DNA of 38,802 bases from a virus (IMGVR_UViG_3300021440_000011:1-38802), one strand, 5' to 3'. Shown: positions 1 to 38,802, counted from the first letter of the stretch. Made by a program: numbers and translations. The notes: generated by a model not told the origin, from the sequence alone.

Positions 1-127
1 GCAACCAAGCGGCATGGACGATCAACGGCGCAAACCAGACCGGTACGTCATTGGCTATTGGCGGCTTAACTGCAACCAACGTAATCAAAGCCGGTACGGT
101 GTTCACTATCCCTACTGTTTTCAGGGT
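1..127. repeat. Terminal direct repeat (circularisation overlap), left copy
   Basis: These 127 bases are identical to the last 127 bases of the window. They lie inside the coat gene, whose reading frame is continuous across the join. The length 127 is a usual large k-mer in de Bruijn assemblers, so this is most likely the assembly overlap of a circular contig and not a biological terminal repeat. The unique circle is about 38,675 bp. Confidence 0.95.
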
Positions 128-542
128 ACACCCGTTAACGCTTGCACCTACAACCGAGTTGATGCAGTTCACCGTAACCGATGATTTTACTGCTGCAGGC
201 ACAACCGGCACGATCAATATCAGCCCCGGTATTTATTTTGCACCGCCAAACCAAAACGTAACCAATGCAGCCGCCAACGGCGCTACGGTTACTTTATTTG
301 CAGCTGCAAGTTCATCAACTGCGTACAACCTAGCGTTCCACAAAGATGCGTTTACGGTTGCCACCGCGCCATTAGACTTGATTGCCGGGGCAGAAGGTTA
401 CAATGCTTCATTGCCAAACGGCTTAAACGTCAGGGTGATGACGTTCGGCAACGGCCTAACCGATGTCAATGCAACACGTATTGATATATTGGCAGGTTTT
501 GCCGCACCGCGTCCTGAATGGGCTTCACGTATCGCCCAATAA
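1..542 (+). CDS. Major capsid (coat) protein, C-terminal part, P22 gp5-like
   Basis: This is the 3' portion of the coat gene, which begins at 38009 and crosses the end of the window. The frame starts at base 3. Joining 38009-38675 to 1-542 gives 1,209 nt and a 402-residue protein, close to the 430 residues of P22 gp5. This part is rich in Ala, Thr, Asn and Gly with short beta-prone segments and ends in PRPEWASRIAQ. The gene follows the scaffold gene and precedes the tailspike and tail-adaptor genes, as expected of a P22-type head module. The internal TTG at base 51 is not the real start. Confidence 0.85.
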   Translation, partial: NQAAWTINGANQTGTSLAIGGLTATNVIKAGTVFTIPTVFRVHPLTLAPTTELMQFTVTDDFTAAGTTGTINISPGIYFAPPNQNVTNAAANGATVTLFAAASSSTAYNLAFHKDAFTVATAPLDLIAGAEGYNASLPNGLNVRVMTFGNGLTDVNATRIDILAGFAAPRPEWASRIAQ

Positions 543-4659: not shown

Positions 4660-4940
4660 TGTTTAAGTTCCGCTCACAATCAAAATTTGTAGACAAGGAA
4701 GGAAGGTTAACCCCCGAAGCATTTACTGCATTGCAACCAAGTACGAAAAATATTTTAACCTTTGTGGCGCAATCCTTTGTTTCCGAAGAACAAGCTATTA
4801 TTTATTTGCCATCTAGCCAAACTATAAACTTTACCCGAAACGGGCAAACAGTGGTTATTACGTCAAACGTAATAACCTTAAATAACGGTGATGCTATTTC
4901 ACTTGCAAGCCCACAAACAATTATTTTTATACCGTTATGA
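4659..4940 (+). CDS. Small virion-associated hypothetical protein
   Basis: 93 residues with overlapping starts and stops on both sides, so clearly part of the tail operon. The first 45 residues are mixed helical; the second half alternates hydrophobic and polar residues (beta strands). I do not recognise a family. The position after the gp10-like gene could suit a tail-needle or tip component, but it is far shorter than P22 gp26 (233 residues) and lacks a long coiled coil. Confidence 0.55.
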   Translation: MFKFRSQSKFVDKEGRLTPEAFTALQPSTKNILTFVAQSFVSEEQAIIYLPSSQTINFTRNGQTVVITSNVITLNNGDAISLASPQTIIFIPL

Positions 4941-5515
4941 GAAATTTTATCAAAATAAACCATGCAATAAACATGGATACGGTAATCGAAGAAATAATAT
5001 CCAATGACGCGTTATTTATGCCTATGCCAATAGAAACATTGGATCACAGGAATCCCGGCCACCCACACAGGGAATTACGCTGCATTACGTTACGGATGAC
5101 CCCGTTTAAAGACGACATTTGCACTAATCACCAAAGCGCTGACGAAGCGGCAGACGAGCTTATTGCGTATGACCTAGATATATATAAATTATTCCCAGAA
5201 TGTCGCCGTGCAGTTTATCGGGTAATGGAAGCTGTAAATGCTAGCCAGATAGGCCGAGTTTGTGTGGCAAGGTTAGACCAAGGGAAGCGTATCTATGGCC
5301 ATTACGACCAAGGTGATTCGGCAAGGTATTATAAGCGGTATCATTTGATGATAAGCGGCAAAAAAGATAACTGGATAACTTGCGGTGAAGGCGCTGACGC
5401 TGAACATTTAGAAATGCTTACGGGTGAATGCTGGTCATTTAACCATGAATTATGGCATTCGTTCGCCAACCACAGCACAGAGCCGCGTATTTATTTGAAC
5501 ATGGATTTAAGGTGA
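4937..5515 (+). CDS. Putative Fe(II)/2-oxoglutarate aspartyl/asparaginyl hydroxylase-like protein
   Basis: 192 residues. The C-terminal half has the facial-triad pattern of the aspartyl/asparaginyl beta-hydroxylase family: GHYDQGD gives H122 and D124, ELWHSFANHS gives H174, and R184 in EPRIYLNMDLR could bind 2-oxoglutarate. This suggests an active jelly-roll oxygenase that hydroxylates a protein side chain. Its place between the tail hub and ejection-protein genes, with an overlapping start, suggests late expression and a virion or host protein as substrate. Fold assignment is moderately sure; the substrate is unknown. Confidence 0.65.
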   Translation: MRNFIKINHAINMDTVIEEIISNDALFMPMPIETLDHRNPGHPHRELRCITLRMTPFKDDICTNHQSADEAADELIAYDLDIYKLFPECRRAVYRVMEAVNASQIGRVCVARLDQGKRIYGHYDQGDSARYYKRYHLMISGKKDNWITCGEGADAEHLEMLTGECWSFNHELWHSFANHSTEPRIYLNMDLR

Positions 5516-14493: not shown

Positions 14494-14498
14494 AAAAC

Positions 14499-14548
14499 AC
14501 CTGCCAGAATAATAGATTATCCGGTCAGGTTTCTATTTAGCGTTATAC
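14499..14548. other. attC-like terminal element of array 1 (copy of 28362-28417)
   Basis: Read on the - strand it begins with GTATAAC, contains an imperfect CCTGACCGG.../...CTGGCAGG hairpin, and closely matches the element that ends array 2; the two share a continuous run covering the outer box and the first hairpin arm. In this copy the second hairpin arm is diverged and the closing GTTATA box is lost. The stop codon of the last array-1 ORF lies in its outer box. Confidence 0.55.
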
Positions 14549-14925: not shown

Positions 14926-15009
14926 GCATAACCCCTCATTCAAGCCGACGATTTACCGTCGGCGGTATTGTTTGGTGCACCCAAGGCGCGGCTTAATTCT
15001 GCGTTAGGC
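14926..15009. other. attC-like recombination site, array 1
   Basis: An 84-bp quasi-palindrome with outer boxes GCATAAC and GTTAGGC (+ strand) and inner boxes TTCAAGCCGAC and GCGGCTTAA. The extra C in the left inner box (TTCAAGCC against TTAAGCC) is the base that sets attC polarity and points to + as the usual top strand. The stop of the 15004-15168 gene and the start of the 14694-14921 gene flank it exactly. This is the clearest site of array 1. Confidence 0.8.
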
Positions 15010-15180: not shown

Positions 15181-15256
15181 GCCTAACAGTTCGCCCAACC
15201 AGACCCGCTTGAGCAATGCGGTGTTTCTTAATCTCAGTCATGCGGTCTGGTTAGCT
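15181..15256. other. attC-like recombination site (degenerate), array 1
   Basis: 76 bp with outer boxes GCCTAAC and GTTAGCT on the + strand and an inner inverted repeat (AACCAGACCCGC / GCGGTCTGGTT). The boxes coincide with a gene stop on one side and a gene start region on the other. The inner boxes differ from the AAGCCG type of the other sites, so it may be a separate lineage or a rearranged site. Confidence 0.5.
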
Positions 15257-15913
15257 TTGCGTTTGCAGCGCCACTAACCTATCTATGCCTATAGCTACCT
15301 CGAATACCACGCCATGCGGCCAGTCTTTACGCACAGAACAGCCAGCTACCTCAAGACCTCCTATGCGCCAATCAATTGTCCGCTCGCTATAGTGTGGCAA
15401 TTCATCCGCATCTATTGCGCTTCCTCCATAAACTTTGGTAAGCACATCTAGTGCTTTTTCGATATACGGCGCTTTACTTCCGTGGCTGGCAAAAAGCTGA
15501 AATTCCATCTGGTAAAACTGAACCAGCCGCAGCTTGCTTGCCCTCATCGTGTCAGGCTTTTCTTCGTCTCGGAACGATAGGCCAACCTGCCACATACAAA
15601 ACGGAAGGCGCTTCTTCATTTGCGCTTCTTGGTCAAAGCGCAGGCGCATCGCTTCAAAAGTCCCCGCCGTCGTTTCCGGTCGCAGGTAGCCGCGCCTGCC
15701 TGCGTCGATCAAATCGAACTTGGCTTCAATATGCCCTCTTAATTGCTCGGCTGGCGTCAATATCGGTGTCTCGGTTCGCTCCATCTGCACAGCAGGATTC
15801 AGCTCTCGCCATGTGTCCAAGAGCAAAACAGGAATCTCCCTCACCAAACACTCGCGGCGCAAAATTTCGCGCTCACTCCACAACACTGTTGCGTTTGAAA
15901 AACAATTTTTCAT
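15251..15913 (-). CDS. Stand-alone class II aminoacyl-tRNA synthetase core, GlyRS-like
   Basis: 220 residues. YLRPETTAGTFEAM (76-89) matches the YLRPETAQGxF signature of glycyl-tRNA synthetase and relatives. LPFCMWQVGLSFRDE (103-117) followed by FYQMEFQLF (133-141) is class II motif 2. SERTIDW (176-182) and a GLEVAGCSVRKDW segment follow the GlyRS active-site strand, and GIDRLVAL (209-216) is motif 3. There is no anticodon-binding domain, and full GlyRS is about twice as long. It may be a catalytic remnant that charges something other than tRNA or modifies host translation. It has a plausible ribosome site (GGGACGATAAG) and lies between two attC-like sites. Confidence 0.7.
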   Translation of the reverse strand: MKNCFSNATVLWSEREILRRECLVREIPVLLLDTWRELNPAVQMERTETPILTPAEQLRGHIEAKFDLIDAGRRGYLRPETTAGTFEAMRLRFDQEAQMKKRLPFCMWQVGLSFRDEEKPDTMRASKLRLVQFYQMEFQLFASHGSKAPYIEKALDVLTKVYGGSAIDADELPHYSERTIDWRIGGLEVAGCSVRKDWPHGVVFEVAIGIDRLVALQTQS

Positions 15914-16155: not shown

Positions 16156-16239
16156 TTATAACCCCTCATTCAAGCCGACGCATCACCGCCAGCGGTTTCG
16201 TTTGGCGCTGCATCAGCGCGGCTTAATTTTGCGTTATAC
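16156..16239. other. attC-like recombination site, array 1
   Basis: 84 bp with outer boxes TTATAAC and GTTATAC and strong inner boxes (TTCAAGCCGACGC / GCGCGGCTTAA). Read on the - strand, its first half is identical over 27 bases to the first half of the array-2 site at 27757-27839, showing that the two arrays share cassette ends. Polarity, from the extra C in TTCAAGCC, is + as top strand. Confidence 0.8.
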
Positions 16240-16404: not shown

Positions 16405-16475
16405 GTCTACCCGGCACTCAAGGCGACGCCGTTAAGCATCGCGGTTTATATTAGCGCCAAAGTTCTGCGTTAGTC
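16405..16475. other. attC-like site with internal deletion, array 1
   Basis: 71 bp, outer boxes GTCTACC (mutated from GTCTAAC) and GTTAGTC on the + strand. It is a near-copy of the array-2 site at 27380-27465: on the - strand, runs of 12, 22 and 25 bases are identical, but this copy lacks 15 bases that carry one inner box. The loss of one inner box and the changed outer box suggest it is inactive. Confidence 0.7.
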
Positions 16476-16712
16476 ATCATGTTTGGTTGTTTCATCAAGC
16501 CGCCATGAAAACCACCAAGCTGCAAAAGAGAAGAACACAGCCTGCCAGTTGCCATGCTTAAATATCGCCCCTCCTAGGGTAATAACAAAGGCGGATGCCA
16601 TTAAGTAATGGCTTAAACGTAACGGCTTGTATTTTACATACTTATATATTTTGCCGCCTAACAAGTCGCCCAAGTGGGACGCTCCAACAGTTTGTGGTGT
16701 TTCTTTAGTCAT
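16470..16712 (-). CDS. Small two-span membrane protein in cassette
   Basis: 80 residues from ATG 16712, with GGGG 8 nt upstream; starts at 16718 or 16742 are possible. After a polar segment (LGDLLGGKIYKYVKYKPLRL) come two hydrophobic helices (HYLMASAFVITLGGAIF and AVFFSFAAWWFSWRL). It ends in the outer box of the site at 16405-16475. Probably an inner-membrane protein; role unknown. Confidence 0.55.
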   Translation of the reverse strand: MTKETPQTVGASHLGDLLGGKIYKYVKYKPLRLSHYLMASAFVITLGGAIFKHGNWQAVFFSFAAWWFSWRLDETTKHDD

Positions 16713-16739
16713 TATCATCGCCCCTTGGCTTTGCGTTGG

Positions 16740-16951
16740 CATGATAGATACAGGCCGGTCGTTACTCCGGCTATCAGCTCACACATCTAAGTATGCCTAC
16801 TCAGAATTAGTCCCCATGCCTGGGAGTTGGCTGTTAATGGTGCTGATTGCTGCGGCGCTACAGCCAGCCGTTGCCACCCATCCAGCTACGGATAGTGAAC
16901 CGCCCAATTTACGCCTGAGTGTCTACTTTCCACTCCGCTGTATCTATCATG
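16740..16951. repeat. 212-bp segment with 14-bp perfect terminal inverted repeats
   Basis: CATGATAGATACAG at 16740-16753 is repeated inverted at 16938-16951. The segment sits between the last - strand cassette gene and the small zinc-ribbon ORF. No target-site duplication is evident. It contains a hairpin (GCCGG/CCGGC at 16753-16772) and short ORFs on both strands. It could be a miniature mobile element, a structured RNA gene or a fused cassette; the sequence does not decide. Confidence 0.55.
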
Positions 16952-17082: not shown

Positions 17083-17416
17083 CAGCTTTAATAAGCGCCT
17101 TCATGTTTAGTTCAGCATGGTATCTACCTTTACACTTAACAAGCGCAGTCGCAGCAGATTCAATGGATTCTAACCTGACCAGATTGGCACGTAATGCCGC
17201 CAGTTCTTCGGCCTGTGCGTCTAGCTTGGCTTGCATGGCTTCTAGCCTATTAGAAGCTTCGCTTAATACAATGTCTGCATCATGGTCGCATTCGGCGGGT
17301 ATACGCATATAAAATTCGGAAATATTCCCATTGGAGCAATGTTCGGCTAATTCATTAAGGCGATTGCACAAAATATCAATTGGCACGGTTTTTGGGTCTT
17401 TATATTGATTGCTCAT
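17066..17416 (-). CDS. Early coiled-coil protein
   Basis: 116 residues, helical. A central heptad segment AKLDAQAEELAALRANL (about 64-80) is nearly the same as one in the upstream gene product. It starts in an ATGA overlap with that gene. Likely a small oligomeric early protein; role unknown. Confidence 0.55.
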   Translation of the reverse strand: MSNQYKDPKTVPIDILCNRLNELAEHCSNGNISEFYMRIPAECDHDADIVLSEASNRLEAMQAKLDAQAEELAALRANLVRLESIESAATALVKCKGRYHAELNMKALIKAVEQKL

Positions 17417-17718
17417 TCCTTTACCTCTAGTACAGAAGAAATGCCCAATTCTTTCTCACCAGTTAGAATATAGGTTGGCTCATAGTTAGAGTCATAGAGG
17501 CCAAATTGAAATGCTGTTAGCGCGTTATCTTTGTAAGTGGCTTTTGCAAACCCACGCAAAGCCGCCAGTTCTTCGGCTTGCGCGTCCAGCTTGACTTGCA
17601 TGGATTCGGTAGCGGCTTCCCATCCGTCAAAAGCAACCTGCTTAGTAGATGCCTTTTGGTTGATTACTTGCGCGTATTTGCTTGCATAAAACCAATTGTC
17701 AAATTCGTCGACCATCAC
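17413..17718 (-). CDS. Early hypothetical protein sharing a coiled-coil motif with its neighbour
   Basis: 101 residues. The N-terminal FDNWFYASKYAQ and GWEAATESM pattern is typical of short phage early proteins that end in DUF551-like modules. VKLDAQAEELAALRGF (about 42-57) repeats the motif of the adjacent gene. ATGA overlap with the ERF stop shows translational coupling. Confidence 0.55.
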   Translation of the reverse strand: MMVDEFDNWFYASKYAQVINQKASTKQVAFDGWEAATESMQVKLDAQAEELAALRGFAKATYKDNALTAFQFGLYDSNYEPTYILTGEKELGISSVLEVKE

Positions 17719-18407
17719 CCCCCCTGTAACTCGCTAGACCTGAAGTCCACATCCACGTTGTATTGCTGTTGTTGCTCTGGCGACATGCTTTTGTATATTG
17801 CCGTTAGAGATTCCATGCTGTCGGCGTTGGTGATCAGGTTAGGCCAGTCGGTTGTGTCGCTTGTTTTTGGCGTTAGCTTGGCTTTCAACACGTCCTTTAA
17901 CGCAGCATGATCAGGCTTGACGTGAGTAGGCACTTTCTGCCACGCAGAAGCCAATTCTTGCGCTGTTTTTGCGGATTTTAATGTTTCAGCATAGTCCGTA
18001 GGTGTCTTTTTGGGCGTGTCTCTGTCAGTAGGCGGCTGTGCGTCTACTGTGTCATGCTCGGTAAGCTGCAAAGCTTGCAGCCACAGGTATCTGGTCAAAT
18101 AGCTTTGTGCGCTACCGACAATCTGTATTGGTGACGCACCTTTTACCGTTGCATCGGCTACAGGCGAGCAGAAGCTAATCACAGATTCCGGCTTGTCGCA
18201 ATCAACAATGTGGAGGGCGGCCTTTTCTTTGTCTCCAAAGTCAAGCACTGAACACAATCTCTGGTCTAGGAAAAGTTTCTGTGCAATAGGCATAAAATCC
18301 GACAATTCGTAGTATGAATAGCCTTGGAATTTGTTAAGACCACTTTTTTTCATAGGTATGGCCGCTAAATCTACCCTTACTTTTTGAAGCTTAGAATAGA
18401 CGTTCAT
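17715..18407 (-). CDS. erf: ERF-family single-strand DNA annealing protein
   Basis: 230 residues from ATG 18407, which overlaps the stop of the small upstream gene (ATGA); an in-frame ATG at 18419 would add four residues. The N-terminal 130 residues show the ERF pattern: Lys-rich GLNKFQGYSYYELSDF, a beta segment ending ISFCSP, and IVGSAQSYLTRYLWLQAL. ERF proteins anneal complementary single strands and in P22 circularise the injected genome. The C-terminal part is a linker and a small helical domain. It belongs to the leftward early operon with the Gp157-like gene. Confidence 0.85.
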   Translation of the reverse strand: MNVYSKLQKVRVDLAAIPMKKSGLNKFQGYSYYELSDFMPIAQKLFLDQRLCSVLDFGDKEKAALHIVDCDKPESVISFCSPVADATVKGASPIQIVGSAQSYLTRYLWLQALQLTEHDTVDAQPPTDRDTPKKTPTDYAETLKSAKTAQELASAWQKVPTHVKPDHAALKDVLKAKLTPKTSDTTDWPNLITNADSMESLTAIYKSMSPEQQQQYNVDVDFRSSELQGG

Positions 18408-18520
18408 TTCAGTTCCCATTGCTCCCTCATATATTCTTCTGTTTCTTCGTAGGCTTCGCGGCCTTCGCGCTCGGCACGTTCGTACTCATCTGATTGGTAT
18501 TCTTCTGTTTCGTCACTCAT
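18404..18520 (-). CDS. Very small acidic protein
   Basis: 38 residues, strongly acidic with repeats of EEY/EYER type (SDETEEYQSDEYERAEREG). It is linked by ATGA overlap to ERF and by 4-nt overlap to the Gp157-like gene. Such overlapping mini-genes are often regulatory or simply translational couplers. No family recognised. Confidence 0.5.
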   Translation of the reverse strand: MSDETEEYQSDEYERAEREGREAYEETEEYMREQWELK

Positions 18521-19810: not shown

Positions 19811-19863
19811 TAGGTAAAAGCGATATGTTTATATTTATTTTCATCCCTACATACCATAAATCA

Positions 19864-19869
19864 TATAAT
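19864..19869 (+). promoter_or_regulatory. -10 element upstream of the exported beta-helix gene
   Basis: A perfect TATAAT 34 nt before the ATG at 19903, but with no good -35 at the usual distance. The promoter, if real, would need an activator or be weak. It is divergent from the leftward early promoter. Confidence 0.35.
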
Positions 19870-19902
19870 CTATTTTCTTTTAATGACTTAGATAAAACAA
19901 AT

Positions 19903-21003
19903 ATGAAAACACTTAAAATATTATTTTTAATTTTTCCGCTCACGGCTTCGGCTTTTTTTGAAAACCAGATCAATGTTACTGGGTTATCGACTGCAAATAC
20001 GGCGGCGGCGGCATTAGCTAATAAGAACATTATCCAGAACGCTGTTAACCAAGGGCTTTCAATTAGCTCAACCGTAAATATTCTTAGCCAAAATGCGTAT
20101 ATTGATGCGGTGGCAGGTGCAAAGGGCATTGTTGTACCAGCAAATACTAAGATTAACTTAAACAAAACTACGCTTAAGGTTTACCCAAACGCTTCAAATT
20201 CTTATAGTATTTTTAGAGTTGAAAGCGTCAACAACGTGATTATCCAAGGCGACGCTACCAGCAAGCTAATTGGTGACCGTGATTTGCATGATTACAGTGT
20301 TGCGGGATTTTTCGGGTTTGGTATTTCAATAAAAAACTCGTCAACCGTCACACTATCCGGTTTTAACATTAGCGACATGATGGCGGATGGCGTTTATGTC
20401 GGTGGCGCGTCTAATTCGACTATTAGGTTACAGTATATGACGTTAGATCATAACCGTAGACAAGGCATGTCTGTTATTGCCGTTAATGGCATGGTAGTAA
20501 CTGGCTGTACGTTTAGCAACACGGCAAGCGGTGACCCAGCGTTAGGGATTGATTTTGAGCCTAATTCTCCTACACAGTTAATTTATAACGTACAAGTTGC
20601 GAGTAATACCTTTGTTAATAACCAAGGCGGCGGCATGAAGGCTTATACTGCAAGTTATCTTGATGACAATTATTACAATGTATTGATTAACAACAATTCA
20701 TTTAATGAAACAAACCCAGCAATAACCTTTTCTAATTCTAGGAACATTATTGCGAAGTTTAATACTATGACAGTTGCTCAGAATTGCGTGACAATGGTTG
20801 GTTCTACGAATAACCAAGTTTTTTCTAACACTTGCATACGTAAAACGCCGGGCAGTACGGCATTATACGCCCCCGTTATAGTCGGTCGCCCTAATACTGG
20901 TAATACGTTTATAAACAACACGTTGACAAGCTATTCCGGCGTTGTTAAACCAGCCAATACACCTGCAAGCCAAGTTTTGACTACAGGTAATATATTAAAC
21001 TAA
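19903..21003 (+). CDS. Exported right-handed beta-helix protein
   Basis: 366 residues from ATG 19903. It begins with a classical Sec signal peptide (Lys-containing start, hydrophobic LKILFLIFPLT, predicted cut after ASA). The body is a pectin-lyase-like parallel beta-helix: a SIFRVESVNNVIIQGDA turn, then many NxxITFSNSxNI-type coils with VxISNNTF/NNNSF patterns. Tailspikes lack signal peptides, so this is not a virion spike in the usual sense. It may be sent to the periplasm or cell surface to alter polysaccharide, receptor access or exclusion. It is monocistronic, between the divergent early promoter and the HTH regulator. No ribosome site is obvious. Confidence 0.65.
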   Translation: MKTLKILFLIFPLTASAFFENQINVTGLSTANTAAAALANKNIIQNAVNQGLSISSTVNILSQNAYIDAVAGAKGIVVPANTKINLNKTTLKVYPNASNSYSIFRVESVNNVIIQGDATSKLIGDRDLHDYSVAGFFGFGISIKNSSTVTLSGFNISDMMADGVYVGGASNSTIRLQYMTLDHNRRQGMSVIAVNGMVVTGCTFSNTASGDPALGIDFEPNSPTQLIYNVQVASNTFVNNQGGGMKAYTASYLDDNYYNVLINNNSFNETNPAITFSNSRNIIAKFNTMTVAQNCVTMVGSTNNQVFSNTCIRKTPGSTALYAPVIVGRPNTGNTFINNTLTSYSGVVKPANTPASQVLTTGNILN

Positions 21004-25498: not shown

Positions 25499-25717
25499 AT
25501 GTCTAGGACGTATGAATTAATATGCCTAGATTGCAAAAAACGACTCTGGGTAGGTCAGGGTGACTCTAAACGCAAATACCTGTACACGACTGAAAAACAT
25601 TTAGAGAATTTGAACAATTTTTTGTTTTCTCATGAAAGGCACAAAATAAAATTTGGTGATGACGAATTTCTTGACACTTTCGATTACGAAGAAGTTGGAG
25701 ATATTGAAGATGCATAA
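25499..25717 (+). CDS. Small CxxC-containing protein
   Basis: 72 residues with CLDCKKRLWVGQG near the N-terminus, then a lysine/aromatic region and an acidic tail. A partial zinc ribbon is possible. Its stop lies in GCATAAC, the first attC-type box of array 2. Confidence 0.55.
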   Translation: MSRTYELICLDCKKRLWVGQGDSKRKYLYTTEKHLENLNNFLFSHERHKIKFGDDEFLDTFDYEEVGDIEDA

Positions 25718-25747
25718 CGCAAAGCTAACCGGGCGTGTACGATTATG
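25712..25747. other. Truncated attC-like site, start of array 2
   Basis: GCATAACGCAAAGCTAACCG, the opening half of a site, is followed within 20 bases by a weak closing box (GATTATGG). The inner partner box is missing. It marks the left edge of the array-2 region. Confidence 0.4.
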
Positions 25748-25996
25748 GAATTGATGCATAATTCAGAACGTGCAGAATTGGAGGCGCTGCGCAAGGATGT
25801 AGAGACATTCCGATGGATGCTATCTCGCTTGAAGGCTTACGACATTGACGGCCCAGAGCTTGTGTTTTCGTGGCCTTATGGCGTTGATTTCAATTTTGGC
25901 GCTCCAATTGAAAGCATACACGCTGCAATGGATGAGGTACAGACTTTGGAGTCGTTGCATAACGCCAAATTAAGGCGACCGAAGGAAACCAATTGA
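25745..25996 (+). CDS. Small phage-type protein in cassette
   Basis: 83 residues. Helical start (NSERAELEALRKDVETFRWM) then a Trp/Phe-rich segment. Its last residues (HNAKLRRPKETN) are translated from the opening half of the next attC-like site, so the original stop has been lost or shifted. No family recognised. Confidence 0.55.
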   Translation: MELMHNSERAELEALRKDVETFRWMLSRLKAYDIDGPELVFSWPYGVDFNFGAPIESIHAAMDEVQTLESLHNAKLRRPKETN

Positions 25997-26013
25997 CAAC
26001 GGGTGAATTATGG
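25957..26013. other. Degenerate attC-like site, array 2
   Basis: Opening box GCATAACGCC and inner box AATTAAGGCG are clear; the closing half (GGGTGAATTATGG) is poor. The upstream gene reads through the first half. Confidence 0.4.
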
Positions 26014-26258
26014 GAAATCAAGAACTTAAACAACCGCTAGAGTACGGCCAGAGTGTGCAGAGTTACGCCATGGAATATTCTGGGAATGTTGTTGAAATGG
26101 GCGACTTAGAAGAATCTGAAAGTGGTTTTCTAGTCGAGATACGACCGCAAGTTTTTATAAAAATTTGCGGATTTGCTAGGCACGACATAATGGCAATGCC
26201 TAATATTTTGTATAAAAAAGTGAAAATAACGATAGAAACTGTTGATCGCGTTGAATGA
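26010..26258 (+). CDS. Small hypothetical cassette protein
   Basis: 82 residues, acidic first half (EMGDLEESESG), beta-rich second half. Its C-terminal codons overlap a GCGTTGAATGAG segment that resembles a closing attC half. No family recognised. Confidence 0.5.
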   Translation: MGNQELKQPLEYGQSVQSYAMEYSGNVVEMGDLEESESGFLVEIRPQVFIKICGFARHDIMAMPNILYKKVKITIETVDRVE

Positions 26259-26268
26259 GAAATTATAC
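26224..26268. other. Possible degenerate attC-like site, array 2
   Basis: GCGTTGAATGAG followed by a changed closing box (ATTATAC) matches the closing half of the site at 28059-28142; an AAATAAC box lies upstream. It directly precedes the ATG at 26269. Weak as a functional site. Confidence 0.3.
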
Positions 26269-26481
26269 ATGAAACAATTACATATTGGAGCAAGCCCAAT
26301 TACTAACCGTATATTTGCAGGACACCTACTTAAGGACGGGCGTTCATGGGGAGAAGGTAAACAGGATGTGACAGGCATTGCATGCTCCGCCGTGATTGAT
26401 CACGTGATGGCTAGCGGCGGATCAGTCATGATTACGGATAACGGCGAACCGATATATGAAATAACGGTACGAGAACTGTGA
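26269..26481 (+). CDS. DUF7446-like small phage protein
   Basis: 70 residues from ATG 26269 (an earlier in-frame start at 26242 lies in the upstream gene). IGASPITNRIFAGHLLKDG followed by WGEGKQDVTGIACSAVIDH matches a widespread small phage protein family that I associate with DUF7446. A compact beta-alpha protein; role unknown. Followed by a GTGA overlap. Confidence 0.6.
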   Translation: MKQLHIGASPITNRIFAGHLLKDGRSWGEGKQDVTGIACSAVIDHVMASGGSVMITDNGEPIYEITVREL

Positions 26482-26822
26482 AGAATAACGCAGACATGGA
26501 AGAGTGGGAAGATGTGTATGTTCCGACGCACCCCATCAAGGGAGGCCGCTGGGTATCCTGCGTGGCAGAGATTCGCTGCAACTCAACTGGAGAGGTACGC
26601 GAGCACGAAACGCACGAAATCATAATGGATGGCGACGAAGACCCGGGCGACTACATTTGGAGCGACGGCAATTATTCCTGCGACTGCAACCGCCGCCTGT
26701 TCTTTGCTCGCGCTGCTGGCCATGATGAGGACTGCGACAAAGATTGCAGCGATGGGCGCTACTCCGTCCGAGTGCGGAACAAGAAAAGCGGGCGCGTGTG
26801 GTACAGCGAATTTAATGTCTAA
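26478..26822 (+). CDS. Cys-rich hypothetical cassette protein
   Basis: 114 residues from a GTG overlapping the upstream stop; ATG 26496 is the alternative. The first codons read through an attC-type opening box (GAATAACGCAGAC). It has a Cys/Asp-rich C-terminal half (CDCNRR, CDKDCSDGRYSVRVR) that could bind metal. G+C content is visibly higher than that of its neighbours, suggesting separate acquisition. TAA lies in the next attC site. Confidence 0.5.
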   Translation: MKNNADMEEWEDVYVPTHPIKGGRWVSCVAEIRCNSTGEVREHETHEIIMDGDEDPGDYIWSDGNYSCDCNRRLFFARAAGHDEDCDKDCSDGRYSVRVRNKKSGRVWYSEFNV

Positions 26823-26879
26823 CGCTGATTTAAAAGAAACAGCTGACGGTTAGCGTCGGCTTGAATAAGGGGGTTATAC
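26817..26879. other. attC-like recombination site, array 2
   Basis: 63 bp. Outer boxes GTCTAAC and GTTATAC, inner hairpin GCTGACG/GCGTCGGC, closing half CGGCTTGAATAAGGGG. The stop of one gene and the start of the next (4 nt after) abut it. Confidence 0.75.
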
Positions 26880-26882
26880 ATT

Positions 26883-27146
26883 ATGAAAATTTGGAAATGG
26901 GAAATTGAAGTAACTGACCATCAAGTGTTGACGCTACCCGCCATGGCGCAAATACTCGATGTGCAGATGCAGGGCGACAAGTGCTGTTTGTGGGCTTTAT
27001 GCGACGAAAAAGCAGAGTATGAGCCACGCAAATTAGCAATTTATGGAACTGGCAACCCAATGCCTAATAACACTGGTGAATATATTGCCACTTTTCAAAT
27101 GGCCGGTGGCGAACTTGTATTTCATGCTTTTGAATTTGACGTATAA
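26883..27146 (+). CDS. DUF7352-like small phage protein
   Basis: 87 residues: WKWEIEVTDHQVLTLPAMAQ, then KCCLWALCDEKAEYEPRK, then IYGTGNPMPNNTGEYIATFQ match a small all-beta phage protein family I associate with DUF7352. Common in phage early regions; function unknown. Stop in the outer box of the next site. Confidence 0.65.
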   Translation: MKIWKWEIEVTDHQVLTLPAMAQILDVQMQGDKCCLWALCDEKAEYEPRKLAIYGTGNPMPNNTGEYIATFQMAGGELVFHAFEFDV

Positions 27147-27159
27147 CGCTTAGTTAGGT
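27141..27159. other. Collapsed attC-like site (both outer boxes, no core)
   Basis: GTATAAC and GTTAGGT are only 5 nt apart, so the hairpin core is deleted. Likely inactive scar of a former site. Confidence 0.45.
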
Positions 27160-27181
27160 GCATTCGGAGAGAGGAAACAAC

Positions 27182-27437
27182 ATGCAAAAAAAATGAGAGC
27201 AATGCCACTTGGCGGCCGATTGAAACAGCCCCAAAGGACGGACTTAGGTTTTTGGCCGTAGATCAGGACCGGGCGATGGGGGTCGTTTGGTGGAACAGCA
27301 AAGAGCAGATGTTTGAGGATTTGCAGTGCCTTATTGAGAACGACGGGGTGCTTACTCACTGGATGCCGCTACCGCCTGCACCTAACGCAGAACTAAGGCG
27401 CGCCGACGCTGGCGCTAATATAAACCGCGATTCTTAA
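27182..27437 (+). pseudogene. WxPIETAPKDG-type small phage protein, frame broken in an A8 tract
   Basis: ATG 27182 has a good ribosome site (GAGAGAGG, 7-nt spacer) but reads ATG CAA AAA AAA TGA. Removing one A from the eight-A run (27186-27193) restores an 84-residue protein with TWRPIETAPKDGLRFLAV and a C-terminal THWMPLPPAP, hallmarks of small phage proteins of this class. The intact part of the downstream frame runs to TAA 27437, with its last 20 codons reading through an attC-like site. It could be a true mutation, an error or a transcriptional-slippage gene. Confidence 0.6.
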
Positions 27438-27465
27438 CGGCGTCGCCTTGAGTGCCGTGTTAGGT
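27380..27465. other. attC-like recombination site, array 2
   Basis: 86 bp. Outer boxes ACCTAAC and GTTAGGT are perfect matches to RYYYAAC and GTTRRRY; inner boxes CTAAGGCGcGCCG and GGCGTCGCCTTGAG pair. It is the intact version of the deleted array-1 site at 16405-16475. Confidence 0.8.
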
Positions 27466-27473
27466 TTTAAAAA

Positions 27474-27749
27474 ATGGCTGGCGAATTTTTACGTTTTTTG
27501 GCACAAAAAAGGTTGTGTTTTCATTGCCATGAGCCAATGAAACCAACACCTGTTAGAAAGAAAAGAAATGGGGATTACGATAAAGGATGGACGCGGGAAC
27601 ATATTGTTCCAAAAAGCAAGGGTGGAAGGAAAGGGGATAATATTGTTCTGGCTCACTACAAATGCAATCAAGAACGAGGCAATGTAGACCCGACACTTGA
27701 AATGATTGAACGGGCAAAAGTTATAAACGCCATTGCTTCGGAAATTTGA
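27474..27749 (+). CDS. HNH endonuclease in cassette
   Basis: 91 residues. CFHC (15-18), WTREHIVPKSKGGRKGDN and LAHYKCNQERGN (about 68-79) form a complete HNH module: two zinc-type CxxC/C pairs and the REHIVP catalytic His. The ATG lies 8 nt after the closing attC box. Standing alone, it may act in packaging, DNA processing or homing; its target is not evident. Confidence 0.75.
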   Translation: MAGEFLRFLAQKRLCFHCHEPMKPTPVRKKRNGDYDKGWTREHIVPKSKGGRKGDNIVLAHYKCNQERGNVDPTLEMIERAKVINAIASEI

Positions 27750-27756
27750 CAATGGT

Positions 27757-27839
27757 GCATAACGCAAAATTAAGCCGCGCTGATGGAAGCTAAAAAGAAC
27801 GCTGACGTTAAGCGCGTCGGCTTGAATGACCTGTTATAC
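27757..27839. other. attC-like recombination site, array 2
   Basis: 83 bp. Outer boxes GCATAAC and GTTATAC; inner boxes AATTAAGCCGCG and CGTCGGCTTGAA. Its first half is identical over 27 bases to the array-1 site 16156-16239 read on the - strand. The start codon of the next ORF lies inside it. Confidence 0.8.
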
Positions 27840-28064
27840 GGTGGCAACTGTCCAGTACCAAAATATATTGCAGTATGCCCAGAATGCGGAGACAAACTGC
27901 ACGTTGATGCTATGGAATGGGAAACAGAATCTGGAGTGCCTACAACTGGTGGATTATATGTTTATTGTAAAAACAAAGAACAAGACAGCCATATGTATTG
28001 GCAATCCGATTGGCAAAGCATTATTAATGCGGCTGAGAAATGGTGTGGTGCAGTTGACGTATAA
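27783..28064 (+). CDS. Zinc-binding-like small phage protein
   Basis: 93 residues from an ATG inside the preceding attC-like site, so the first 19 residues are translated from the site. The conserved part is CPECGDKLHVDAMEWETESG followed by GLYVYCKNKE and WCGAVDV, a CxxC/C pattern of small phage proteins. The stop lies in GTATAAC. A later start cannot be excluded, as no other ATG precedes the conserved region. Confidence 0.6.
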   Translation: MEAKKNADVKRVGLNDLLYGGNCPVPKYIAVCPECGDKLHVDAMEWETESGVPTTGGLYVYCKNKEQDSHMYWQSDWQSIINAAEKWCGAVDV

Positions 28065-28142
28065 CGCTTTAATTAACGCGGCCAGCACCGAGCCAAGCTG
28101 TGCCGCATTGCTAAATGGCTCGCGTTGAATGAGGGGTTATAC
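28059..28142. other. attC-like recombination site, array 2
   Basis: 84 bp. Outer boxes GTATAAC and GTTATAC, inner segments TTAACGCG and CGCGTTGAATGAGG. ATG of the next gene follows at 28145. Confidence 0.7.
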
Positions 28143-28144
28143 CG

Positions 28145-28357
28145 ATGGAAAGATTTAGCAATTTTACTAATAACCAAAGGCTTATAGAAGCCTATAAAAA
28201 TGACTCACTATTTCATAGCGTAGTGACCGCCCATGAAATGAAAACCAGTTCTTATGTAGAAATGCTGGAGGATGCCGTTATTGCGCTTATTGAAAAGGCA
28301 AACACAGCGCATGATCTGAGCGTTAAATATGTTAGGCGTTATGGGCAGATTGAATGA
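28145..28357 (+). CDS. Small helical cassette protein
   Basis: 70 residues, helical (RLIEAYKNDSLFHSVVTAHE then YVEMLEDAVIALIEKANTA). The ATG is 2 nt after the closing attC box; the stop is 4 nt before the next opening box. No family recognised, though similar lengths and style recur in phage early genes. Confidence 0.55.
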   Translation: MERFSNFTNNQRLIEAYKNDSLFHSVVTAHEMKTSSYVEMLEDAVIALIEKANTAHDLSVKYVRRYGQIE

Positions 28358-28361
28358 TGAC

Positions 28362-28417
28362 GTATAACGCTAAATAGAAACCTGACCGGATAATCGATTA
28401 TCCGGTCAGGTGTTATA
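28362..28417. other. attC-like terminal element of array 2 with 30-bp perfect palindrome
   Basis: GTATAAC and GTTATA outer boxes enclose a perfect 30-bp palindrome at 28381-28410 (CCTGACCGGATAAT and its inverse). It closely matches the element at the far end of array 1 (14499-14548). ATACATAA direct repeats follow (28420-28441). Confidence 0.6.
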
Positions 28418-28443
28418 AAAATACATAAATACATAAATACTTA

Positions 28444-29368: not shown

Positions 29369-29755
29369 GTGACAGAAACTAAGCCAAAGTACAATGAAAA
29401 GCTAAAATACAGCCATAAAGTAAGCGAACACGCCCACCAGTGCCATTATTTCAACTGGATACGGTACGCATATCAAAACAAACTAGCGTTTGCTATACCG
29501 AACGGTGGCAACAGGGACAAAATTACAGGTGCACTATTGAAACGTGAAGGTGTAACGCCAGGTATACCGGATATTATGATTGCCAGTGCAAACGGCAAAT
29601 ATCATGGGCTATTTATCGAGATGAAAAAAGAAGATGGAAGCTTAAGTCCAAGCCAGAAAGCCATTAAGGCAAAGCTTGAGAGCGAAGGGTATTGTGTCGA
29701 AGTCTGCAAAGGGTGGGAGCAGGCAGTAAAAATTACTCAGGAATATTTTAAATGA
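29369..29755 (+). CDS. VRR-NUC domain nuclease
   Basis: 128 residues from a GTG. FAIPNGGNRDKITGALLKRE, then GVTPGIPDIMIASANGKYHG, then LFIEMKKEDGSLSPSQKAIK give the PD-(D/E)XK core of VRR-NUC (D of PDIM, E of IEMK, Gln/Lys following). Such phage proteins act as small Holliday-junction or structure-specific nucleases, consistent with the recombination genes and headful packaging. Confidence 0.85.
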   Translation: MTETKPKYNEKLKYSHKVSEHAHQCHYFNWIRYAYQNKLAFAIPNGGNRDKITGALLKREGVTPGIPDIMIASANGKYHGLFIEMKKEDGSLSPSQKAIKAKLESEGYCVEVCKGWEQAVKITQEYFK

Positions 29756-38008: not shown

Positions 38009-38802
38009 ATGGCTGATAATTTATTAACACATAAAATGATCGCCCGTGCATCGGCTGACATCCTCGAAGAAGAATCACCTTTTTTGATGAACGTCAACCG
38101 TGCGAGGCAAGCTGAGTTTGCAACAAATCAAGGCGGTTTTAATAAAGGTGATTACGTAGACGTAAAAATCCCGGGCACTAGTAAAGTGTTTGACGGTGAA
38201 ACATTTGCCGAAGGCGGCGCGGCGGCTGACTACCAAGAGCGTTCTGTCAGGCTGCAATTGAACATCCGTAAGCACATGGCGCTTGATTTCACCATGAAAC
38301 AAAGGGCTTTGGATATTACCGAGTATAAAGAGCGTATCTTGCGGCCTGTAATGCGGCAAATGTCCAGCTGGCTAGAGGGAGAGTTTATCCGCCGTGCTGT
38401 TATTGCAACATCGAACACTGTCGGTACGGCTGGGACAGTGCCAACAACCATGAAGACATACGCGCAAGCACGTGGGAAGATGCAAAAATTCTTGACCCCG
38501 AGCGGTGACAGGAGCTTGTTGATTTCGTCAGATGCCAACATCGAAATGGTTGACTCATCTAAGCAATTGTTCCACGCAAATGCCCAGATTGAGAAAAACT
38601 ATTTAACCGGCGCTATGGGCGAAGCTCAAGGCTTCATGTGGTATGAGCATCAATCTATACCAACCATTACCCAAGGCAACCAAGCGGCATGGACGATCAA
38701 CGGCGCAAACCAGACCGGTACGTCATTGGCTATTGGCGGCTTAACTGCAACCAACGTAATCAAAGCCGGTACGGTGTTCACTATCCCTACTGTTTTCAGG
38801 GT
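38009..38802 (+). CDS. Major capsid (coat) protein, N-terminal part, P22 gp5-like
   Basis: The first 264 codons of the coat gene, running off the window and completed at 1-542. ADNLLTHKMIARASADILEE and SPFLMNVNRARQAEFA at the start, then GDYVDVKIPGTSKVFDGETF and SVRLQLNIRKHMALDFTMKQ, are the gp5-type N-arm and backbone of the HK97 fold. Ribosome site AGGAAA. The last 127 bases duplicate the window start. Confidence 0.85.
   Translation, partial: MADNLLTHKMIARASADILEEESPFLMNVNRARQAEFATNQGGFNKGDYVDVKIPGTSKVFDGETFAEGGAAADYQERSVRLQLNIRKHMALDFTMKQRALDITEYKERILRPVMRQMSSWLEGEFIRRAVIATSNTVGTAGTVPTTMKTYAQARGKMQKFLTPSGDRSLLISSDANIEMVDSSKQLFHANAQIEKNYLTGAMGEAQGFMWYEHQSIPTITQGNQAAWTINGANQTGTSLAIGGLTATNVIKAGTVFTIPTVFR
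38676..38802. repeat. Terminal direct repeat (circularisation overlap), right copy
   Basis: Exact copy of bases 1-127, inside the coat gene. See the left copy; it indicates a circular map. Confidence 0.95.

Follow-up and report, generated by a model that had tools for sequence, protein, structure and literature searches.

Inverted attC arrays without an integrase in both early arms of a P22-like phage

Seventeen phage clusters of attC sites lacking integron integrases (CALINs) have been published, among them that of MW202573, and attC sites from other phages recombined with IntI1 (Qi et al. 2023, PMC9892861). Here we analyse a viral DNA record of 38,802 nt (IMGVR_UViG_3300021440_000011:1-38802; "the window" means this whole stretch), in which an original prediction, made from the sequence alone, had placed two oppositely oriented attC-bounded gene arrays, and we concentrate on the one at 25712-28417 on the + strand (array 2; its counterpart on the - strand is array 1). 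MW202573 is a relative of the window phage (TerL 61%) and, like it, has an integrase-less attC cluster, located in the arm that carries the recombination genes, and a shared structural module; the window differs in having two arrays, one per divergent arm. Neither an inverted polarity of the sites nor exchange of the same cassette with host integrons or other phages is reported in the passages of PMC9892861 consulted.

Two further systems are close. The class 1 integron of plasmid R388 has attC boxes and structure that are recognised by the same model as the window sites, but it has canonical polarity, carries intI1 and holds resistance genes instead of phage genes. The sedentary chromosomal integrons of Methylomonadaceae (L274, L275 and L300) have attC sites of the same type and length (84-86 nt) as the window, and that of L300 has a DUF7446 cassette in common with it; L274 and L275 have intI and canonical cassettes, opposite the attC model strand, whereas the window phage lacks intI and its cassettes are inverted. 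Lambdoid phages (nin region and left-arm region) likewise have small variable genes in the two divergent early operons, and to our knowledge those accessory-gene regions are not bounded by attC sites. Our preferred explanation, which we consider likely, is an integrase-less phage cassette array of inverted polarity, lying in the early region and recombined in trans by a host IntI.

attC structure of the sites

A covariance model of 18 pairs (R1), trained on the sites at 27380, 27757 and 28059 and on two array 1 sites and run with all filters off, recovered its five training sites at 74-97 bits. All four sites named in the original prediction (at 26817, 27380, 27757 and 28059) are present where it had placed them, the first with a weaker score than the others (Table 1). 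R1 also matched three array 1 sites outside its training set (E 7e-6 to 8e-5) and three sites in MW202573 (E 8e-4 to 5e-3). A second model, R2, built from 76 sites, recognised both attC sites of R388 at about 52 bits. In the 76-site model 91.5% of cells were paired, against 80.0 +/- 0.6% in shuffles, with a covariation score of 0.289 against 0.091, and both values collapsed once the partner columns were slid by 1 to 3. As a negative control, we searched 50 whole records of phages related through TerL or the replication protein; 47 of these records had no site at E<=0.02. The attC array in the window is thereby confirmed as real and well above chance; it has the support of both models and is not a phage-specific repeat unrelated to integrons.

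The relation of sites to reading frames points the same way. Of 52 sites, 28 begin with a TAAC whose TAA closes an open reading frame (ORF) of 45 aa or more, whereas elsewhere in these sequences 89 of 1096 TAAC words do so (p=4e-16), and the ORF map together with this stop-in-box test gives the canonical cassette arrangement of one small ORF between two attC sites. The original prediction had also mentioned degenerate sites, and weaker, collapsed or half sites are indeed present at 26817, 27141, 28362, 25711, 25957 and 26246; the degenerate sites of array 2 are attC remnants, and the one at 27141 looks like an attC with its hairpin deleted. The sites do bound cassette-like genes as had been proposed, but they are inverted with respect to those genes (see below), and, several of them being degenerate or collapsed, some of the genes are not mobile units at present. 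Repeats connect the two arms (51 nt at 96% between the 27380 site and array 1 positions 16409-16459; 53 nt at 92% between the terminal palindromes), and 25704-25735 has 87.5% identity over 32 nt to a stretch at a methanotroph integron attC in L300.

Rfam returned chance matches only, with no attC match; blastn found nothing for the region against phages or for one site against plasmids; a strict DNA pattern of the window attC had no match in 85k genomes, and the terminal palindrome had no exact match in viral contigs. A relaxed DNA pattern matched a Methylobacter-binned phage contig, Stenotrophomonas and Pseudoxanthomonas. A box pattern allowing three mismatches performed at chance level and was replaced by the covariance models.

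Integrase absence, polarity and recurrence

The window had no match to PF00589 or to the integron-integrase model TIGR02249, and by these searches it lacks the intI of a complete integron; the related array-bearing phages likewise had no match to TIGR02249. The array has three strong sites and several weaker ones in a stretch of 2.7 kb, with no neighbouring intI, and the phage has no integrase; it is accordingly a CALIN, and its recombination must rely on a host enzyme or on homologous annealing.

In a canonical cassette the folded, recombining strand is the non-coding one. This is the case in R388, where dfrB2 and orfA lie on the + strand and the attC sites on the - strand, and in two methanotroph integrons adjoining intI (TIGR02249, 495 and 497 bits), whose cassette ORFs lie opposite the model strand. 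The window genes, by contrast, lie on the model strand: each of the eight sites that have a clear ORF of at least 60 aa carries it on that strand, with none opposite. We considered whether these ORFs might be artefacts, with canonical genes on the other strand, and this was ruled out by Pfam domains, which fix the coding strand as + for DUF7446, DUF7352 and HNH in array 2 and as - for a class II tRNA synthetase core in array 1. The same domains, together with a CPECG motif, bear out the predicted content of array 2, namely + strand genes for DUF-type proteins, an HNH nuclease and a zinc-type protein. In other phages (G031, G032 and G079), too, gene and site share a strand where the cassette encodes a Dam, N6_N4 methyltransferase or DHHA1 domain. 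Across seven phages (the window and six others) sites lie on the operon strand in 11 of 11 arms, for which a sign test gives p 0.001, a value that serves as a guide only, the arms of related phages not being independent. The travelling unit is thus attC then gene, with attC 5' of the gene, whose TAA stop is often contributed by the following site's crossover-side box. Within the literature searched, this inverted polarity of attC relative to genes is new here.

Earlier phage attC clusters were known as isolated cases; those described here recur at comparable places among related phages. Double arrays on opposite strands were found in G031 (3 and 15 sites), G032 (3 and 11) and G054 (4 and 5), and single arrays in G079, G021 and MW202573. 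Recombination genes and the lysis module flank an array in each of the window, G031, G054, G021 and MW202573, and a second array lies between the replication genes and the terminase in the window and G031. Nearly all cassette proteins differ among the phages, the few shared families being a Dam methyltransferase, a 70-aa family (G079 and MW202573) and a DHH protein. The ERF protein used as bait found no relatives. The two-arm layout fits a recurrent slot, and to that extent the idea of a designed slot for accessory early genes agrees with its recurrence in G031, G032 and G054; that the slot is "designed" is not shown by this, and most related phages have no array. One 48-kb IMG/VR contig (G048, of L181) combines a terminase and 18 attC sites with a complete integron integrase located at the contig end, and is perhaps a prophage beside a bacterial integron.

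Cassette traffic and how the arrays may recombine

The original prediction had proposed comparing cassettes with those of related phages and host integrons, and such shared cassettes exist. A fused query of the window cassettes against 237 Methylomonadaceae genomes yielded a DUF7446 homologue (63% aa) at 9154-9396 of L300, between two attC sites of a chromosomal array of about 20 sites; it is inverted as in the phage, while canonical orientation prevails among the cassettes of that array that have a clear ORF. The glycyl-tRNA-synthetase (GlyRS)-like cassette of array 1 has a relative, matching over 44 aa with 89% aa identity, that lies at the edge of a Methylobacter-binned phage contig (with terminase and portal), where the gene is followed by an attC and the polarity is again inverted. 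In 12 viral contigs, of which several measure 44-64 kb, this gene occurs at 67-86% identity as an ordinary gene, with no attC on the contig at E<=0.05, and the four DUF7446/DUF7352 homologues checked in other phages have no attC nearby. From these comparisons it seems that genes of phages turn into cassettes, and a host integron holds at least one cassette of phage type. Some of the cassettes whose function is unknown may thus have come from phage early genes, and the shared cassettes outline a testable route of gene flow between phages and integrons. The orientation of the sites, opposite to that of the genes, suggests that phages exchange genes by a phage variant of the cassette currency used by bacteria.

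The zinc-ribbon cassette had no viral relative by peptide pattern. Its stretch 27832-28064 is common, box to box, to a longer methanotroph prophage gene (L302 7740-8279; G091:C166), which carries GTATAACGTTTTGTTATAC in frame, a sequence that looks like a collapsed attC and suggests that two cassettes were fused there through loss of the attC hairpin. Of 201 Methylomonadaceae genomes, 10 have sites of the window type and length, in some cases next to intI. On this comparison of sequences, the host is probably a methanotroph-like gammaproteobacterium of the Methylomonadaceae, that is, the window phage probably infects methane-eating bacteria. In one Methylobacter metagenome-assembled genome, two phage contigs (L258 and L301) each have window-type attC near an end; they may be one phage broken at a cassette array.

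In the explanation that we favour, each unit would consist of a small phage accessory gene and an attC, and the genes would be driven by the divergent early promoters instead of the integron Pc promoter. A host IntI would act in trans on the foldable (here coding) strand, during infection or in the prophage state, and cassettes could be cut out, inserted and shifted among the arms, other phages and the integrons of hosts. Since each arm has one polarity, only inverted-gene cassettes would be expressed in the phage, and phage cassettes, being antisense in a host array, would be silent from Pc. Replication starting between the arms would put the folded strand on the lagging-strand template in both; in Vibrio cholerae, an array inverted to the lagging-strand-template state raised cassette excision (PMC11023631), and the GC skew of the window, which tracks gene direction, fits this proposal, although it is no proof. 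It is also possible, and we suggest it tentatively, that phages keep a cassette pool of their own, with polarity opposite to that of bacterial integrons, both pools recombining with the same host integrase and being separated by polarity. Phage cassettes would then be silent in host arrays and host cassettes silent in phages, and attC polarity would be an assayable separator of the two pools.

Several observations weigh against recombination by a host IntI on inverted cassettes. No recombination event was directly seen, and there is no close relative to compare. Several sites are decayed or collapsed, which is expected if recombination has become rare. In the phage CALIN TJE1 the annotated genes give canonical polarity, and the rule of inverted polarity is therefore not universal; moreover, polarity judged by ORFs was noisy in G054 (4:4) and MW202573 (1:2, strict test), for which we took it from the strand of the operon or annotated genes. 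Finally, the host family is assigned from the type of attC and the homology of cassettes; TerL did not settle the family.

The main rival is that the sites are short homology linkers, similar copies of which are annealed by the phage ERF protein with no part for an integron integrase. The phage encodes ERF and no integrase, its sites are 75-96% alike within and between arms, and decayed sites would still be usable as homology. We nevertheless regard this as unlikely, since the zinc-ribbon homology is bounded by outer boxes and not by arbitrary points inside a site, and since a cassette of phage type occupies a place in a host integron array, the usual field of action of IntI; both points leave room for annealing between phages. 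It is less probable still that the sites are maintained as punctuation of RNA or operons (intergenic hairpins with ready stop codons), recombination being incidental. Stop codons do often fall in the first box, some sites are terminator-like by pattern, and a weak terminator activity of attC is mentioned in PMC9892861, but the sites keep the boxes, extra-helical bases and bottom-strand pattern of true attC, terminator-like matches in the region are near shuffle level (20 vs 16.1 +/- 4.3), and the 47 related records mentioned above do without such sites. The least probable alternative, already disfavoured, is that a piece of host integron was picked up once as a block through a packaging or recombination error, its orientation being accidental, as integron segment capture is reported for Vibrio anguillarum prophages (PMC9892861); a captured block would be expected to be canonical while the genes here are inverted, two cassettes are of phage families, and the pattern recurs, in several phages, in both arms.

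Genome layout and further features

The record is that of a P22-like phage, with a P22-type portal (PF16510, P22_portal, 4e-119) and structural proteins matched in MW202573, in keeping with a P22-like structural module. Its coat gene is apparently split, as 51-542 and 38009-38802 both match one MW202573 gene, and because both ends (window 1-542 and 38009-38802) match that gene, the record is probably a nearly complete and circularly permuted genome. From a divergent early region at about 19.8-21.0 kb, the left arm (- strand) carries Gp157, ERF (an annealing protein, encoded at 17718-18419) and then array 1, and the right arm (+ strand) carries a helix-turn-helix (HTH) protein, a replication-type protein, array 2, about five small genes including VRR-NUC (29369-29755), and TerL (30426). 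The two arrays thus lie on opposite strands and are both read away from the regulatory centre, as had been predicted; their placing at the distal ends of the early operons is right as a general position, although array 2 is not at the very end, with about five genes between it and TerL. PADLOC found no defence family beyond a weak HNH similarity.

Table 1. Features of the two arrays, with the evidence for each
Array	Feature	Position	Strand	Evidence
1	terminal palindrome, end of array	14496-14548	-	
1	attC	14926-15009	-	R1 94 bits
1	attC, outside training set	15181-15266	-	E 1.2e-5
1	GlyRS-like core gene, cassette, 220 aa	15251-15913	-	PF00587 2.7e-6; PDB GlyRS 5e-5; phage genes with 85% identity
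1	attC	16156-16239	-	R1 97 bits
1	decayed attC, outside training set	16405-16475	-	E 7e-6
1	attC, outside training set	16656-16740	-	E 7.5e-5
2	truncated attC remnant, start of array	25711-25740	+	32-nt L300 match
2	small ORF, 83 aa, no family	25745-25996	+	
2	degenerate attC-like site, left boxes kept, unscored by models	25957-26012	+	sequence and fold
2	small acidic ORF, 82 aa, no family	26010-26258	+	
2	attC right half, directly 5' of DUF7446 gene	26246-26268	+	repeat family D3 with 27817, 28120
2	DUF7446 protein	26272-26481	+	PF24233 7e-16
2	acidic ORF, 114 aa, TAA stop inside next attC box	26478-26822	+	
2	short attC	26817-26879	+	R1 19.6 bits, E 0.015
2	DUF7352 protein, phage family, stop in next box	26883-27146	+	PF24043 1.4e-23; phage homologues
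2	apparent collapsed attC, two outer boxes, hairpin deleted	27141-27159	+	TATAACGCTTAGTTAGGT; R2 12.7 bits, weak
2	attC	27380-27465	+	R1 86 bits, E 3e-20
2	HNH nuclease, 91 aa	27474-27749	+	PF01844 2e-7
2	attC	27757-27839	+	R1 84 bits, E 1e-19
2	CPECG-motif (zinc-ribbon-type) protein, ~72 aa	27846-28064	+	homology to methanotroph prophage gene
2	attC	28059-28142	+	R1 74 bits, E 6e-17
2	small ORF, 70 aa, no family	28145-28357	+	
2	terminal attC-like palindrome	28362-28418	+	E 0.06; repeated, inverted, at the end of array 1

Three further features lie outside the arrays. In the middle of the divergent early region and adjoining the HTH gene, 19825-21003 (+) encodes a repetitive, probably beta-helix protein with a signal-like N-terminus. 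In the left arm, a 55-nt stretch with 87% identity (17188-17242 and 17553-17607) is common to two adjoining - strand genes, a small tandem gene duplication. Among the structural genes, 4937-5515 (+) may, judging by its sequence, encode a hydroxylase of the 2-oxoglutarate/Fe(II) type.

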